From Tubiluchus corallicola (taxonomy: Eukaryota; Priapulida; Priapulimorpha; Priapulimorphida; Tubiluchidae): a stretch of 64,000 bases of DNA. Of this stretch, positions 2,534-40,863 are shown in pieces (position 1 is the stretch's first letter; each line of letters begins with the position of its first letter). Below the pieces are notes generated by a model. It had not been told where the DNA came from and searched no databases. It saw nothing but the letters and a program-made list of their open reading frames with translations. The stretch covers positions 1,708,501-1,772,500 of the forward strand of contig JAQGDQ010000001.1 of assembly GCA_030141605.1 (NCBI GenBank), read 5' to 3'. Both the position numbers and the translations under genes were made by a program.

Positions 2534-2645
2534 TCCGACACGCTGTTTCCATGTTCTCACTATTGCAGATTTCCGGTACAAATGTCATTACTAACAACAC
2601 ATCTTTGATTGGTTGTTACACATCTGATGTAAGAACACACTGAGA

Positions 2646-2652
2646 TGACGTG
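2646..2652 (+). promoter_or_regulatory. UPRE/CRE-like site TGACGTG
   Basis: The bases TGACGTG followed by T match the core of the unfolded-protein-response element TGACGTG(G/A), bound by ATF6 and XBP1, and also contain the CRE half site TGACG. The site lies about 50 bases upstream of an exact ERSE in the same block, which is why I record it. A heptamer alone would be weak evidence. Confidence 0.45.
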
Positions 2653-2667
2653 TCATTCTGATTTTAA

Positions 2668-2686
2668 CCAATCACATGCAGCCAAA
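2668..2686 (+). promoter_or_regulatory. Partial ERSE (CCAAT-N9-CCAAA)
   Basis: CCAAT at 2668-2672 is followed after nine bases by CCAAA, which matches three of the five bases of the ERSE second half CCACG. A reverse CCAAT (ATTGG) also occurs near 2610. Clustered CCAAT boxes with spaced second halves are typical of BiP/GRP78 promoters. Confidence 0.35.
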
Positions 2687-2700
2687 TTTTGGGTGATCGG

Positions 2701-2719
2701 CCAATCCGATAGGGCCACG
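2701..2719 (+). promoter_or_regulatory. Exact ER stress response element (CCAAT-N9-CCACG)
   Basis: CCAAT at 2701-2705, nine bases, then CCACG at 2715-2719 is a perfect match to the ERSE consensus bound by NF-Y plus ATF6 in animal ER chaperone promoters. A TATA-like ATAAAAG follows at 2741. The next gene downstream on this strand is a BiP gene, the classical ERSE target, with its start codon at 6066. I infer that this is the promoter of that gene, acting through a 5' untranslated exon and a long first intron. Confidence 0.65.
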
Positions 2720-2740
2720 CTAGTTATGCTTTTAGTTTCC

Positions 2741-2747
2741 ATAAAAG
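2741..2747 (+). promoter_or_regulatory. TATA-like box ATAAAAG
   Basis: This AT-rich hexamer-plus lies about 22 bases downstream of the ERSE. It would place transcription initiation near 2770. Confidence 0.35.
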
Positions 2748-2769
2748 CGTGGTTTTAGGTAAGTTATCT

Positions 2770-2900
2770 ATTTTTCTTGAATATTTTGAATAATATTTCC
2801 TACAGTCGAAACAAAAGTTATATTTCGTGCAGACGCTCTTGGTTTTTATACTGTGAACATAAAAGTGAAAGAAATTCGTTTCGCATTGGCAAGACACGGG
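2770..2900 (+). other. Candidate 5' untranslated exon of the first BiP gene
   Basis: The stretch follows the TATA-like box and ends with a good donor (cacggg|gtacgt at 2901). The first coding exon of the downstream BiP gene is preceded by an acceptor at 6050-6051, so splicing 2900 to 6052 would join this exon to the start codon region. An additional strong donor (catg|gtaagtg near 5799) could mark an alternative or middle 5' exon. This is an inference from splice signals only. The short open frame from 2777 is not evidence of protein. Confidence 0.3.
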
Positions 2901-3103
2901 GTACGTATCTCCATGTAATAATAATTAATATAACATTAATACTTAGACTTGGTAGGTTTGCTGCTTTTATTTAGGTACTGGGTAGTACCGTAGATACCTT
3001 CCTTTGATTATAATATCTACAGTGGCCAATAACTACACTTTAAGATTGGCTTTTGGGTATTTTGTATGTAGTGGCAGAGACGAAAATTGAAATCCACGCG
3101 CTG

Positions 3104-4262
3104 GTACTTGCTGCGAAGTCTAAGAGACTAATCACAACACGGTTATTGACGGTCTCTCCTCAACAATTTGCGAAATTGCGGCAGATTTGATGCGTCAACT
3201 GTTTCACTATATTAAGTGAATTCCAAGGGCCCACCCACAACACCGGAAGAGAAGAAATGAGCTCTGATAATTAGTGCGAGAGTATTAATCATACAAATAA
3301 TTTAGAACATAAATCACGTAGTGGTCTAGATAAAAATTTGTCACTGCGCAAAATAGAACTACCACTAATGACTTTATAACAGTTAATAATGTCTATAATA
3401 TCACAGTGTTGTTCAAGAATGACACAGAGTCAGGTTGAATATCAGAGGCCAGACTAATACATCTCCATTGAGTTTTTTCTAAAGCATTTTTAAGAGTAAC
3501 ATACTGTTGTGACCAAACAATGCACGCATATTCTAGTATTAGTCTAACTATAGCTTTATAAAGAGGTGCAATAACTTTTGCACTACGTGATGAAATGCAG
3601 CGTTTTATCATTCCAACGCATCTATTGGCCTGAGAAATAATATGCTCAATATGTGAATTCCACTTCAGGTTATTTGAGATTAATACCCCTAAATCGTGTA
3701 CAACTGATTTTTCTTCAACGACACCATCTCTCAGATAATAAGGTATTGCAGAACTAGAACAAATACGAAGTGCGCTGCATTTACTACGTTTGAGGGAACA
3801 TTGACCATTTGTCTCACCACCGCTCATTTTCAGGCAGGTCAGCTTGTAAGATCTCTTGATCAGAGGAATTTCTAATTGGACGGTATGGTTTTATATCATC
3901 AACAAACAGTGTTATGCGTGTGTCTGGGGATACACAATCAGTAACATCATTGATAAAAATAAGAAAACAATAAGGTCTCGACAAAGTCTCTTGAGGAATG
4001 CCACTGGTTATATTTCTCCAGGAAGTGGTTATACCATTTAAAACTACTCTTTGCCCTCTGTGTGTTAGAAAATAATGAAACCATTGGAGCAGTTTACCTC
4101 TTATACCTGCAAATTCCATTTTTAACATGAAACGACGAAAGAGGAACGGAATCAAATGTTTTTCTAAAATCAATATATAGAATGTAAATTGATAACAGAA
4201 GATAGAGAAATAGGGCATAAAAAACCACATGTCAAGTTGGTGCTAGGTTTTTTGGGGATAGG
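3104..4262 (-). mobile_element. Degenerate LINE, copy 2 (RT region and 3' end)
   Basis: Minus-strand frames give an RT palm segment at 3814-4230 with the GIPQ block and FVDD in place of the usual [FY]ADD. At 3393-3827 the RT thumb and C-terminal region contains DLGVLISNNLKWNSHI and LYKAIVRLILEYACIVW. The two frames are offset, so a frameshift separates them. The 3' segment (3104-3430) and a segment near 4196-4262 align to copy 1 at 228-450 and about 620-690, in the same orientation about 2.9 kb apart. The altered catalytic box and the frameshift mark it as inactive. If the upstream ERSE drives BiP, this element sits in the 5' intron of that gene. Confidence 0.78.
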
Positions 4263-4840
4263 GGTATCTGCTGGTGTGTGGGATCGACTGAAAATATAGC
4301 AAAACTAAAATTAATATTAAAAGTACCTATACTTTAAGATTATCGATGAGCTAATGTTTGATTTCATTTGCCACTTGTCAGTTAGGATGCAAATTATTAT
4401 TGCATTACTCCCTTATTTGTAGAGCTATTTAAATTTTATACATTAAATCAATTTGAATGATTTATTCTGGGGTAATCTTTTTTATGTATATAATAAGTTA
4501 TTTATCATCATTACAAGCAAAAGATTGAAATACAGTACAGCATAAAATTGCAATATAAAATTTTTAAAAAGAATACACAAGGTAGAACATAGAGTGACAA
4601 GCACTATTACACTGTTACAAGATGAATGTACGAAATTAAAATTAAATGAGTCAAACTTAGGTTTGGAAATTAAATAAGCCATATGGGATGAATATTTTAA
4701 GCAAGTCAGCAACTCAAAAACTGTATAAAGCTGGGTAATCAAATTTGTGTAATAGAGTTCTTAAGGTGGTATGTTTACTGAGTGTGTGGTTAAATCTAGA
4801 AGCCAAAACTATTTTCTGTAAGTTGATAATTAGTATCAAA
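4263..4840. other. Non-coding AT-rich sequence
   Basis: No supported gene. The short minus-strand open frames at 4482-4742 and 4714-4926 show no family motif and look like chance openings in AT-rich DNA. Confidence 0.4.
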
Positions 4841-5490
4841 TAAGGGTGTACCAGATCTGCATACAGGGATCCGGTAATTTTAATCAATCCGGACCCGGCA
4901 GAAATGTTCATTGGATTTTGCACCATTTGTATTTCTATTTTTTCATGCGTAAAACTACCATCTGCACAGCTATTGTGAAGAAGAATTTGAGCATTTAAGA
5001 AAAATTATACGTAGCAGCTTAATTAGTAATAATTACGCAAATTGAGTTAATTTTTTAAAGAATTTAAGGATTTCTATTAAAATCTTTAGAAATTTACAAA
5101 AGAATTGCTTAGTTTTTATGCCGGCATGGTTGTAGCACAAGCGATACCAGCAGTCTTCATGCTGTGACTCCTTCCAGCAAGTAGTGTGCAAAGGTAGCAC
5201 TTTCTCCGCAAAAATATCTGCTAAAGATTTAGAACCATCTTCCAATAAAAGCACAGTTTGGTAATTTTTTAGTTTATACCAAGCACAAATCAAGTCTTCA
5301 AAATTACAAAATTAGCAATGTTTGCAGTGTTTCCAGTCAAAATTACTCAGTGACCTTTCAAAATGGACAGGCGATCCCAATCACATGAATAATGCGGCCT
5401 AACAAATGAAATATCCTCTACATTAATTTGTAGATCCAGATCTGGCACATACAGATCCGAAACTGGCAAATCTTATCCAGTACATCCCTA
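4841..5490. mobile_element. hAT-like non-autonomous element
   Basis: The left end begins taagggtgtaccagatc. The right end, read in reverse complement, begins tagggatgtactggataag. Ends of the type TAGGG(A/G)TG.ACC are common in hAT transposons. The flanking octamers gtatcaaa (4833-4840) and ctagcaaa (5491-5498) match at six of eight positions, fitting a decayed 8-bp hAT target-site duplication. The interior has no recognisable transposase; a minus-strand open frame of 86 codons at 5033-5293 shows no family motif I know. Confidence 0.5.
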
Positions 5491-5498
5491 CTAGCAAA

Positions 5499-6065
5499 TT
5501 AATGAAGTACCAAGAGCTGTTAAATGGTTGAAACATACCAATGTACTTCACTTGCAAGTGCATCTCTAATAGCATGTCCCTATTATAGCAAAATGTCCAG
5601 TAATATATTGTACATATGCACTCTACAAAGTATTACTTAATATTATATTTTGTTATAACAGAACAGTTCTAATTATTTCCAGTCATTTCCTGTTTGAGAT
5701 CACACCAGTTTAGCTGAATATTTTTGTATTGATTTCCAACGAAGAGTTGTGTTTGTCTAGCCTACCAGCTGTGTTTTTTTGTGCATGTGTTGTGCATGGT
5801 AAGTGTATAAAACTAAACTGCTTAATTAATAATGCTTATAAAAGGCATTACATAATTTGACTATATATCAAAATCTTTAATTTAAAATGTATAATTTGGG
5901 CCTGATTGGTCTGATTAGCCTAATTATGCTGTTTTTGTGATTTAGTAAATTTAGTTTAGCAACTATAAATTTAATTTAACAGTCGAAAGACTATATACCA
6001 TATATTGAATCCTGTGTTTTAGCACTCTAAAGGTAATATATTTATTTTTAGATTAATAACAAAAC
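5499..6065. other. Upstream region and untranslated leader of the first BiP gene
   Basis: Non-coding. It contains a strong donor-like catg|gtaagtg near 5799 and a clear acceptor tttatttttag ending at 6051, which leaves a 14-base leader before the start codon. No ERSE is present in this stretch. Confidence 0.45.
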
Positions 6066-10838
<4,773 letters not shown>

Positions 10839-10839
<1 letters not shown>

Positions 10840-10844
10840 ATAAA
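10839..10844 (+). terminator. Poly(A) signal overlapping the BiP stop codon
   Basis: AATAAA begins on the last base of the TAA stop. A second AATAAA at 11344-11349 would give a 3' UTR of about 500 bases and is the more usual placement. Confidence 0.4.
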
Positions 10845-12015
10845 GTGAAACTGAATGTTGATTATTTAATGTAATATTTCAAGTATTAAAATATAAAGTT
10901 TGTACTATGTATGGTAATTGCTCTTTGCATTTCCTAATGTAGAAGTTTAGAAAGTATGTTTAACATTTTTGGGTTGTTTTATAATGTTTTAATTGTCATT
11001 TGTAGTTAGTTTGCATTTTACTGCCCTGTTTTTTTCTATATATTTCAGATCCGTATATTTTCGATATATTTCCGATAAATAAGCAAGATCAGTGTGTTTT
11101 CTACATATTACCAGTACGGCCTATTATTATTGTGTTCCATAGTTTTCTAAAGCAAAACGTTAACTAATATGATTCAGTAATGTTTGTTTCATTATTGTTG
11201 AAAGTGTGGGCATTGACATTGCCATATTTTATGTGGCTTGCCAATATTGCTTTCATTACTACATTGTGCTATGTAGTATCATTACTACATATAATAATGT
11301 AACATTTTAAATATTTAACTTTGTAATCTTGTAAATATGGACAAATAAATTGTTTACTATTTATACCTAAGGTATAATACCATAGCTTTTATTAATTTTT
11401 GTGTTCCAGTAATAAAATTTAAAAAATTAATAGCTGCTGCCTATCTTTTACATTAAATAAAGTAAAACTGTTTTTGGGCTTCTAAATGTAAATTATACAT
11501 GTTTTGTGAATTTTTACATTATCGAAAATTCAAACTGAGATATGAAATTTAACTACAATTTGAAGATGCTGTCTTGTTGGTAAGCCTGGCCAAAATAATG
11601 CAGGTCCTAGATTTTTGTATTTGAAATATCAGACTTTATTAAAATTTACAAATTAACATAAGTTAATGTAATTAATGAGTATGATATACATCACTTAATA
11701 GCTTTGGCAGCCTAGGAAAGTATAAGCTAAACTGCAAACTTTAAACTACGAGTTTTACCAATAGTCACCAACAGTTGTTTGCCTGTACTTAAAATTTACA
11801 ACTTTTGTTTTCTTATGGCTATGTAGGCCAAGTAGTTGTAAAAAACATAGTTGTGAATGTCTTATATGGTTGTAGACCAGTTCTGTGTAAATGCCAGGGG
11901 TTCGTTGCCTGTATATGAAATATATCCAACTCTGATAGACGGACATTTCTAGTCTGTACATGATATATGACGATTTGCGCTTTTTTGTTTTTGTGGTATT
12001 AGCGTAACATTTCAG

Positions 12016-12044
12016 TTTGCTATTTTGTATAGCAAAATAGCAAA
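12016..12044. repeat. Perfect hairpin, 12-bp arms
   Basis: tttgctattttg at 12016-12027 is the reverse complement of 12033-12044, with a five-base loop. It lies about 170 bases upstream of the second BiP start codon and next to another hairpin. Confidence 0.7.
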
Positions 12045-12059
12045 TATTTTGTATTTGCA

Positions 12060-12093
12060 CTATGTTAACTAGTGCAAATACTAGTTAACATAG
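12060..12093. repeat. Perfect hairpin, 14-bp arms
   Basis: ctatgttaactagt at 12060-12073 is the exact reverse complement of 12080-12093, with a six-base loop (gcaaat). It lies about 120 bases upstream of the second BiP start codon. Confidence 0.75.
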
Positions 12094-12210
12094 TCAGTCA
12101 AGTATTTAATGCGTTTTACTGTTAATTTCACTTTTCAACTTTTTTCAACCTTTGAACTGCAATAGCATTTATTTTCAATTCAGGTTTATAGAAGGCAGTT
12201 CTACAAGAAA

Positions 12211-20931
<8,721 letters not shown>

Positions 20932-39005: not shown

Positions 39006-40688
39006 TCATGTGTCCAGCATAAGCTTAGGATTGTATAAATGTTTGAATGCAACAAATATTGTTGTGCCATCTGTATTGTTGTTGTCAGCAGTTAGAAAGT
39101 TTTCGTGCACCATGCCTTTCAGGATCTTCACTTGCACATGTTCAGTATTGTCATCCACACTTGTCACTTTGGCTTCCATGTACTCAGAAACTTGTGGACA
39201 AACTGATTCAGTTAATTCTAGGATCTTGAATGCAATACGATCTCCAATTCTGGGCAGTGATTTCAGATCAGCAAGAGTTTCATAGTTAACACGTTTATTA
39301 TCATTTAAGGATAATTCAGCATTTTCTAAAGATGAAGTAACAGCCTCTGCTGCAGTCTTTTTGGTATCTACTGGAGTTTTTAGTTGTGCAACAGAGTCAC
39401 TCTCCTGTTGTTGCCCATCTTCATCCATTGCTTCCGCTGCTATCACACTGTTACAACATCCAGCATTATATGAGTTACACTCATTAGTATTTCTTTCCCG
39501 AACTTGTAAAGTTGTTTCGCCTTGCTTTTTTGTGTCTGCTAGAACAGAATCAATATAGCTGTTGTCATTCAATGATTCAAAAAATGAAACTTGATGTGTA
39601 GCTCTTTCAGCTGTTTCTGGAATGACTAAACCGGGAGCTGGATTTTGCATGTCACTATCGGAATCTGGAAAGACAATTTTCTTGTTCTTTACGTGACCTA
39701 TCAAGGGTGTAAAAGAAGGATTAGTTATCGGTAAGGGAGTGCACTGAACAGGTTCCTTTTTCTTAGCCAATTTACGTCTCTTTCGTCGCTTCTTTTGTTG
39801 CGATTCATTGGCTACATTCACAAGTTGCTGATTTTCTATAGGAACAATGTTCAGATACTGCTCAGGGGTGCGACTATTGTCAGCCGACTCATGGTATTCT
39901 TCACTGTGTTTTTCCCTCCGTTTTTTGTTCTTCTTTTTCCTGTGTGGTTTTTCATATACTTGTTGGCATTCTACATCCACTGCGTCAGTTGAGTTAGACT
40001 TGCAATGTTTCTTTTCGACTTTTTCCTCACAAATTTCAGTTTTTTGTGTCTTGCTGACCATTTCAGTGTCTCTAAGAGACCATCCTTTCCCAGTTTGTTC
40101 TTTCATAAGCCGATTCATTAACTCTTGTTGAGTTAGTGGAACAATCACTCCACAATCTTGACTTGTATTTTTCTTGGCAATTGTTTGCACAAGTTGTTCA
40201 CTTTTGCTTTTCATTTCAGGATTATTTTTCTTTTCTTTCCCTTCTTTTCTGTCCCTGCTTTTCTTTGCTTTTGGTTTAGTACAATGGTGACCAGCTTCCA
40301 CATTTTCCACACCAGTATTTACTGTTTTTGTTAATGACTGCAATTTTAGTAATTCAACACTTATCAAATCTCCATCTCTTATGATTTGTGAACTTTCGTC
40401 AGAAGGCAACAATCCTCCATTGAGAAATAGGTGTACACGTAAATGGGCTATTCCAGCTTCGTCATTATAAGGCACATGAATTGGCTCAACTTTCCAATTT
40501 GAAAAATAACTATTACACGAATTCTCAGTCCAGTTTACTGCACTTATTCGTCGAGAAACAAGATTTTCCACATCAGCAACATGTTTATGGATGTTAGTGT
40601 CAATTAGAAGCCAAAAGCTAGAACATAATCCGGTAAAATCACTGGAGCTGTTCAGAAACTGTACACGAATGACTGAGTTATTGGTCAT
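39006..40688 (-). CDS. COIL: Coilin, Cajal body scaffold protein (single exon)
   Basis: Nuclear scaffold that organises Cajal bodies and binds snRNPs. The 560-residue product (human coilin is 576) begins with the coilin N-terminal self-association domain: VIRVQFLN, SSFWLLIDTN, then FLNGGLLPSDESSQIIRDGD. The middle is lysine-rich with nuclear-localisation clusters such as KPHRKKKNKKRREK and KKRRKRRKLAKKK. The last 93 residues are the Tudor-like coilin domain (LPRIGDRIAFKILELT and IFVAFKHLYNPKLM). I start at the methionine at 40688 because the coilin domain follows at once; an in-frame ATG at 40781 would add 31 unlikely residues. About 20 extra residues sit between the self-association strand and GGLLP compared with human. 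The frame has no intron, unlike its neighbours. Confidence 0.9.
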   Translation of the reverse strand: MTNNSVIRVQFLNSSSDFTGLCSSFWLLIDTNIHKHVADVENLVSRRISAVNWTENSCNSYFSNWKVEPIHVPYNDEAGIAHLRVHLFLNGGLLPSDESSQIIRDGDLISVELLKLQSLTKTVNTGVENVEAGHHCTKPKAKKSRDRKEGKEKKNNPEMKSKSEQLVQTIAKKNTSQDCGVIVPLTQQELMNRLMKEQTGKGWSLRDTEMVSKTQKTEICEEKVEKKHCKSNSTDAVDVECQQVYEKPHRKKKNKKRREKHSEEYHESADNSRTPEQYLNIVPIENQQLVNVANESQQKKRRKRRKLAKKKEPVQCTPLPITNPSFTPLIGHVKNKKIVFPDSDSDMQNPAPGLVIPETAERATHQVSFFESLNDNSYIDSVLADTKKQGETTLQVRERNTNECNSYNAGCCNSVIAAEAMDEDGQQQESDSVAQLKTPVDTKKTAAEAVTSSLENAELSLNDNKRVNYETLADLKSLPRIGDRIAFKILELTESVCPQVSEYMEAKVTSVDDNTEHVQVKILKGMVHENFLTADNNNTDGTTIFVAFKHLYNPKLMLDT

Positions 40689-40863
40689 GCTGGCACGTTT
40701 AAGTGCAAACCTATCAATGAGATAAATTGTTAGCACTGTAGATGAGCGAACTGTAACTTTGTTTTTACTGTAACTTGTCATGTAAGCCTGGACATAAACT
40801 GAGCCTGCTGCACAGACACAAAAAATTTACGACTTACATGTTAATACCGAATGTCAGACATTA

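Follow-up and report, generated by a model that had tools for sequence, protein, structure and literature searches.

The 64-kb window analyzed here (the whole stretch of DNA under study, on contig C1874 of a 343.5-Mb assembly) very probably contains the stress-inducible promoter of a BiP gene, ordinary in kind, which transposons have displaced 3.3 kb from the coding part. In our preferred reading, which we hold to be probable, a CpG-rich block acts as a GRP78-type UPR promoter that leads into a 5' untranslated exon, and the intron that follows has been enlarged by a LINE and a hAT-like element. As the best reading of the data, the promoter assignment draws on the context of the site, the CpG ratio, the promoters of other ER chaperone genes and the trans-acting factors encoded in the same genome. 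The support thus comprises a single-copy CpG-rich block with an exact ERSE, intact BiP genes, comparable chaperone promoters and the presence of UPR factor genes.

The ERSE consensus is CCAAT-N9-CCACG and the UPRE consensus is TGACGTGG/A (PMC8301375). The sequence CCAATCCGATAGGGCCACG at 2701-2719 (+ strand) matches the former exactly, as the first-pass annotation had stated, and is its sole copy in the 64-kb window, against 0.03 expected from shuffled sequence. The extra CCAAT boxes claimed upstream are present at 2608-2612 (- strand, reading ATTGG on the + strand) and 2669-2673 (+), and the TATA-like ATAAAAG claimed downstream lies at 2741-2747 (+), 21 bp 3' of the ERSE, adjoining an additional CCACG core at 2748-2752 (-, CGTGG on the + strand). 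The same annotation also named a UPRE, which goes too far: TGACGTG is present at 2646-2652 (+) and supplies seven of the eight UPRE bases, and the 8-mer TGACGTGT at 2646-2653 departs from the full consensus at its final base. Similarly, the ERSE-II pattern (ATTGG-N-CCACG) occurs only with one mismatch, overlapping the ERSE at 2709. From the ERSE to the BiP1 start codon at 6066 we measure 3365 bp, in agreement with the separation of about 3.3 kb given earlier.

The exact pattern by itself proves nothing, because ERSE counts are close to background genome-wide and many copies fall in a transposon ORF. Across the genome there are 207 exact ERSEs and 175 matches to the reversed pattern, which is no clear enrichment, and the weight initially placed on exactness was therefore excessive. 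The combination of an ERSE with ATAAAA occurs 36 times versus 7 for the reversed pattern; the majority of these 36 sites belong to one repeat family, whose ERSE lies within an open frame of 269-522 codons in all four copies checked, so that it is probably coding rather than promoter sequence. In this repeat, where an exact ERSE is followed by ATAAAA (1501-1540 of fetched locus L049, and about 30 more genomic places), the motif is probably a coincidence within a transposon gene. Genome-wide enrichment, whether of the ERSE or of the ERSE with ATAAAA, was accordingly rejected as proof, both being at background level once repeats are discounted.

The surroundings of the site are more informative. 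Among 36 other exact ERSEs, namely those in fetched loci, some of which are repeat copies, none has TGACGTG in equivalent surroundings, and a pair of extra CCAAT boxes accompanies three; the BiP site combines the two features. The genome-wide density predicts 3.4e-4 exact ERSEs for the 570-bp promoter block and 3.7e-3 for the 6 kb upstream of BiP1. The earlier description of the composite as characteristic of GRP78 promoters thus holds insofar as the site context favors a UPR promoter, and fails in the weight given to the exact pattern and in its full UPRE; it also passed over the second, HDEL-ending BiP gene and its lack of a visible promoter of this kind. That the motifs are a chance assembly devoid of promoter function would fit the background-level counts of the ERSE and of the ERSE with ATAAAA after discounting repeats, but is highly improbable in view of their position before BiP, the rarity of the composite, and the CpG signature and single-copy nature of the block.

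This CpG-rich block extends from 2540 to 3110 between repeats, and its tested part, 2540-3000, matches itself alone in the assembly. Its CpG observed/expected ratio of 0.95 exceeds that of 94.6% of 400-bp windows, whereas the window overall is depleted (0.53); CpG loss of this kind is attributed to methylation-driven mutation (PMC8857923). The ratio offers support and not proof, since high values are also seen in exons and in young repeats. Two BiP genes lie downstream of the ERSE block, whose CpG signature is promoter-like. Upstream, the block adjoins a MITE-like inverted-repeat element at 2004-2539 with 37-nt arms that are 81% identical. Elsewhere in the window, a coilin gene at 39006-40826 (- strand), with Coilin_N and Tudor_Coilin matches, has an upstream CpG peak at 41.2-42.25 kb.

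Both BiP genes are intact and lie in tandem on the + strand within the first 21 kb of the window, 1.37 kb apart. BiP1 (6066-10839) and BiP2 (12211-20931) each have eight coding exons and encode 645 and 658 aa, respectively, with 76% identity, a dN of 0.18 and a saturated dS. BiP1 is an HSP70 (E 3.7e-250) whose closest solved structures are GRP78/BiP. The assignment to BiP/HSPA5 follows from HSP70 family membership, a signal peptide (assessed by eye in BiP1 and BiP2), an ER-retention tail and a top match to BiP. The retention tails differ, with KQEL in BiP1 (10825-10839) and HDEL in BiP2 (20917-20931); BiP2 is the more canonical copy and BiP1 the more diverged. We also considered the loss of an AMPylation residue in BiP1 through a Thr-to-Ser change and rejected it: under human numbering, counted from the tail of the human protein, Thr518 falls elsewhere, on a threonine conserved in both copies. 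No further BiP genes were found in the genome, the remaining matches being HSP70-type genes of lower similarity, of which some are apparently bacterial DnaK. Long intronless DnaK/HSP90-like ORFs occur on contigs such as C2165, C101, C20, C575 and C861, several apparently bacterial, which suggests that these contigs derive from a symbiont or a contaminant. Mitochondrial COX1 has no match in the assembly.

Other ER chaperone genes of the same genome have related 5' ends. The genes for calreticulin, GRP94 and a P4HB-like PDI carry CCAAT with CCACG near their start codons, and CpG rises there as well (up to 1.2 in calreticulin, 0.9 in PDI and 0.7-1.05 in GRP94). Counting CCAAT within 100 bp of CCACG or TGACGTG, we find three sites in 2540-2840 and, for calreticulin, GRP94 and PDI, at least one per promoter, compared with 3.2% of random 300-bp segments that contain such a pairing. 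For GRP94, we positioned the beginning of the signal exon by eye, and the control set excludes calnexin and MANF, whose first exons are unplaced; an HSP110-like gene on C1738 and an HSP90 gene on C4 were dropped as controls, not being ER chaperones. The exact ERSE is absent from the scanned stretches of these other ER chaperone genes.

The factors that such a promoter would require are also encoded in the genome: genes for NF-YA and XBP1 are present, together with an ATF6-like bZIP exon (88% identity). The XBP1 mRNA contains CCG^CAG and CTG^CAG sites 23 nt apart in twin 7-nt loops, as in an IRE1 substrate. The stem-loops are no more stable than shuffled sequences (z -0.27), and the IRE1-type call therefore rests on loop sequence and spacing. 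The corresponding intron of the XBP1 orthologue lies on contig C2138 (2523-2554 of fetched locus L045). Three contigs carry the XBP1 bZIP exon, and over 3.1 kb the C1787 locus is identical to that on C2264; duplicated haplotype contigs therefore appear to be present in the assembly.

Taken together in our preferred reading, the GRP78-type core promoter would span 2540-2770, with NF-Y predicted to bind the CCAAT half of the ERSE. Under an unfolded-protein load, the CCACG half, and probably TGACGTG too, would be occupied by cleaved ATF6, by XBP1s or by both. Initiation is expected about 30 bp past ATAAAAG, near 2770, and would yield a transcript whose short untranslated first exon (about 2770-2900, + strand) is joined to 6052, a position 14 nt 5' of the BiP1 ATG. 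Through this block, BiP would become stress-inducible.

The splice sites are compatible with such a leader, as the first-pass annotation had proposed; the exon and its intron remain the best reading of this region, with the junction itself a prediction, and splicing of the exon at about 2770-2900 to 6052 is likely. Placed from the TATA-like box, the putative exon contains no ATG and ends after 2900 at the donor GGG/GTACGTAT, whose score of 8.6 falls inside the range of the BiP donors (1.0-11.8). A splice-site scan places the far end of the candidate 5' UTR intron (2901-6051, +) at the acceptor TTTTTAG/ATTAATAAC, and joining 2900 to 6052 gives an ATG-free leader. The strongest donor of the block, at 2758, precedes the start expected from ATAAAAG.

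A start closer to BiP1 is one counterpoint to this model. The strong donor ATG/GTAAGTG after 5798 would close a rival 5' exon or promoter-proximal region at 5683-5798 (+), and TATA-like boxes, one at 5.84 kb and AT-rich ones near 5.96 kb, would permit initiation within 5.7-6.05 kb, the transcript either carrying the exon that ends at 5798 or running unspliced from about 5.99 kb, with the ERSE block left as a distal enhancer or relic. We consider this arrangement quite unlikely: the CpG ratio of 5500-6050 is 0.17, the CCAAT/CCACG pairing is absent from 5500-6066, the putative leader, itself CpG-poor, contains ATGs, and TATA-like words are to be expected at about 28% GC. A very unlikely alternative treats 6052 and 12184 as acceptors for spliced-leader trans-splicing and 2770-6051 as an outron, which might belong to an operon of BiP1 and BiP2. 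Acceptors directly 5' of both start codons and tandem genes only 1.37 kb apart would suit it, whereas the promoter motifs of calreticulin and PDI lie about 60-170 bp from the ATG with no evident acceptor between.

Under the promoter reading that we prefer, the intron would have grown to about 3.15 kb by taking up a fragment of a LINE together with a hAT-like element. The LINE, already noted in the first reading of the sequence, is well founded: the fragment at 3128-4266 (- strand) retains pieces of a reverse transcriptase ORF that, with no direct Pfam match of its own, shares 35% identity (E 2e-17) with another ORF of the window that matches RVT_1. A related fragment of this repeat lies at 250-686, so that the promoter block is flanked on both sides by fragments in direct orientation that share 83-94% identity. 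The hAT assignment is tentative. The 650-bp element at 4842-5491 has imperfect TIRs and an 8-bp target duplication matching at 7 of 8 positions (TATCAAAT/TAGCAAAT flanks), and within it we see no transposase and no ORF of at least 100 aa, consistent with a hAT-like non-autonomous element. Rfam returned no match within the window.

The control of BiP2 is a separate matter. The 1.34-kb gap between the genes (10840-12183) contains neither a CCAAT/CCACG module nor a clear CpG peak (ratio 0.49) in our motif and CpG scans, and as it lacks such a promoter, BiP2 would be either constitutive or dependent on the promoter at 2.7 kb. In an extension of the preferred reading that we rate as rather unlikely, one promoter would serve two genes, with the exon ending at 2900 spliced to 6052 for BiP1 or to 12184 for BiP2, which would place BiP1 inside the BiP2 5' UTR intron. 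BiP2 does have its own acceptor (12183/12184, 27 nt 5' of the ATG), and joining 2900 to 12184 likewise gives an ATG-free leader. Against sharing, the single moderate donor of the gap (11579, score 7.8) permits a separate constitutive BiP2 start, and the slight increase in CpG at 10751-11150 might reflect a weak promoter. The two BiP genes of C. elegans also differ in inducibility: hsp-3 is constitutive and hsp-4 strongly stress-induced (PMC12193957). The present genome likewise has a pair of BiP paralogues, of which one may plausibly be constitutive and the other strongly stress-induced; unlike the C. elegans pair, they lie in tandem, and the one visible UPR promoter precedes the diverged KQEL copy.

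If BiP2 did use the 2.7-kb promoter, the locus would resemble the cholinergic gene locus, where the first intron of ChAT contains VAChT (PMC3053374), in that a whole gene would lie inside the first intron of another; in contrast to that locus, the products here are paralogous, the inner gene has eight coding exons and the sharing is hypothetical. That a single UPR promoter serves both the KQEL and the HDEL gene through a choice between acceptors 6.1 kb apart is, in our estimate, an unlikely arrangement; if it is true, the proportions of the two BiP isoforms could be adjusted by ER stress through splicing.

Our preferred assignment finds its closest counterpart in the mammalian HSPA5/GRP78 promoter, which likewise combines an exact CCAAT-N9-CCACG, extra CCAAT boxes and a TATA-like box shortly downstream with a BiP gene beyond it. 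The mammalian promoter differs in having several ERSE copies, compared with one here, and the promoter described here lies 3.3 kb from the ATG, beyond a 5' UTR intron that transposons appear to have enlarged; the mammalian gene is not known to contain such an intron. A literature search found no paper on an oyster GRP78 gene carrying an ERSE.

Read in this way, a mammalian-type ERSE switch, together with its NF-Y, ATF6 and XBP1 partners, would be placed at the BiP locus of a CpG-depleted genome. The case further indicates that CpG ratio and motif context can locate a promoter that transposon insertions have split from its ATG. With a single UPR promoter visible for two tandem BiP genes, the locus would also offer a clean test of divided versus shared stress control in duplicated chaperone genes.
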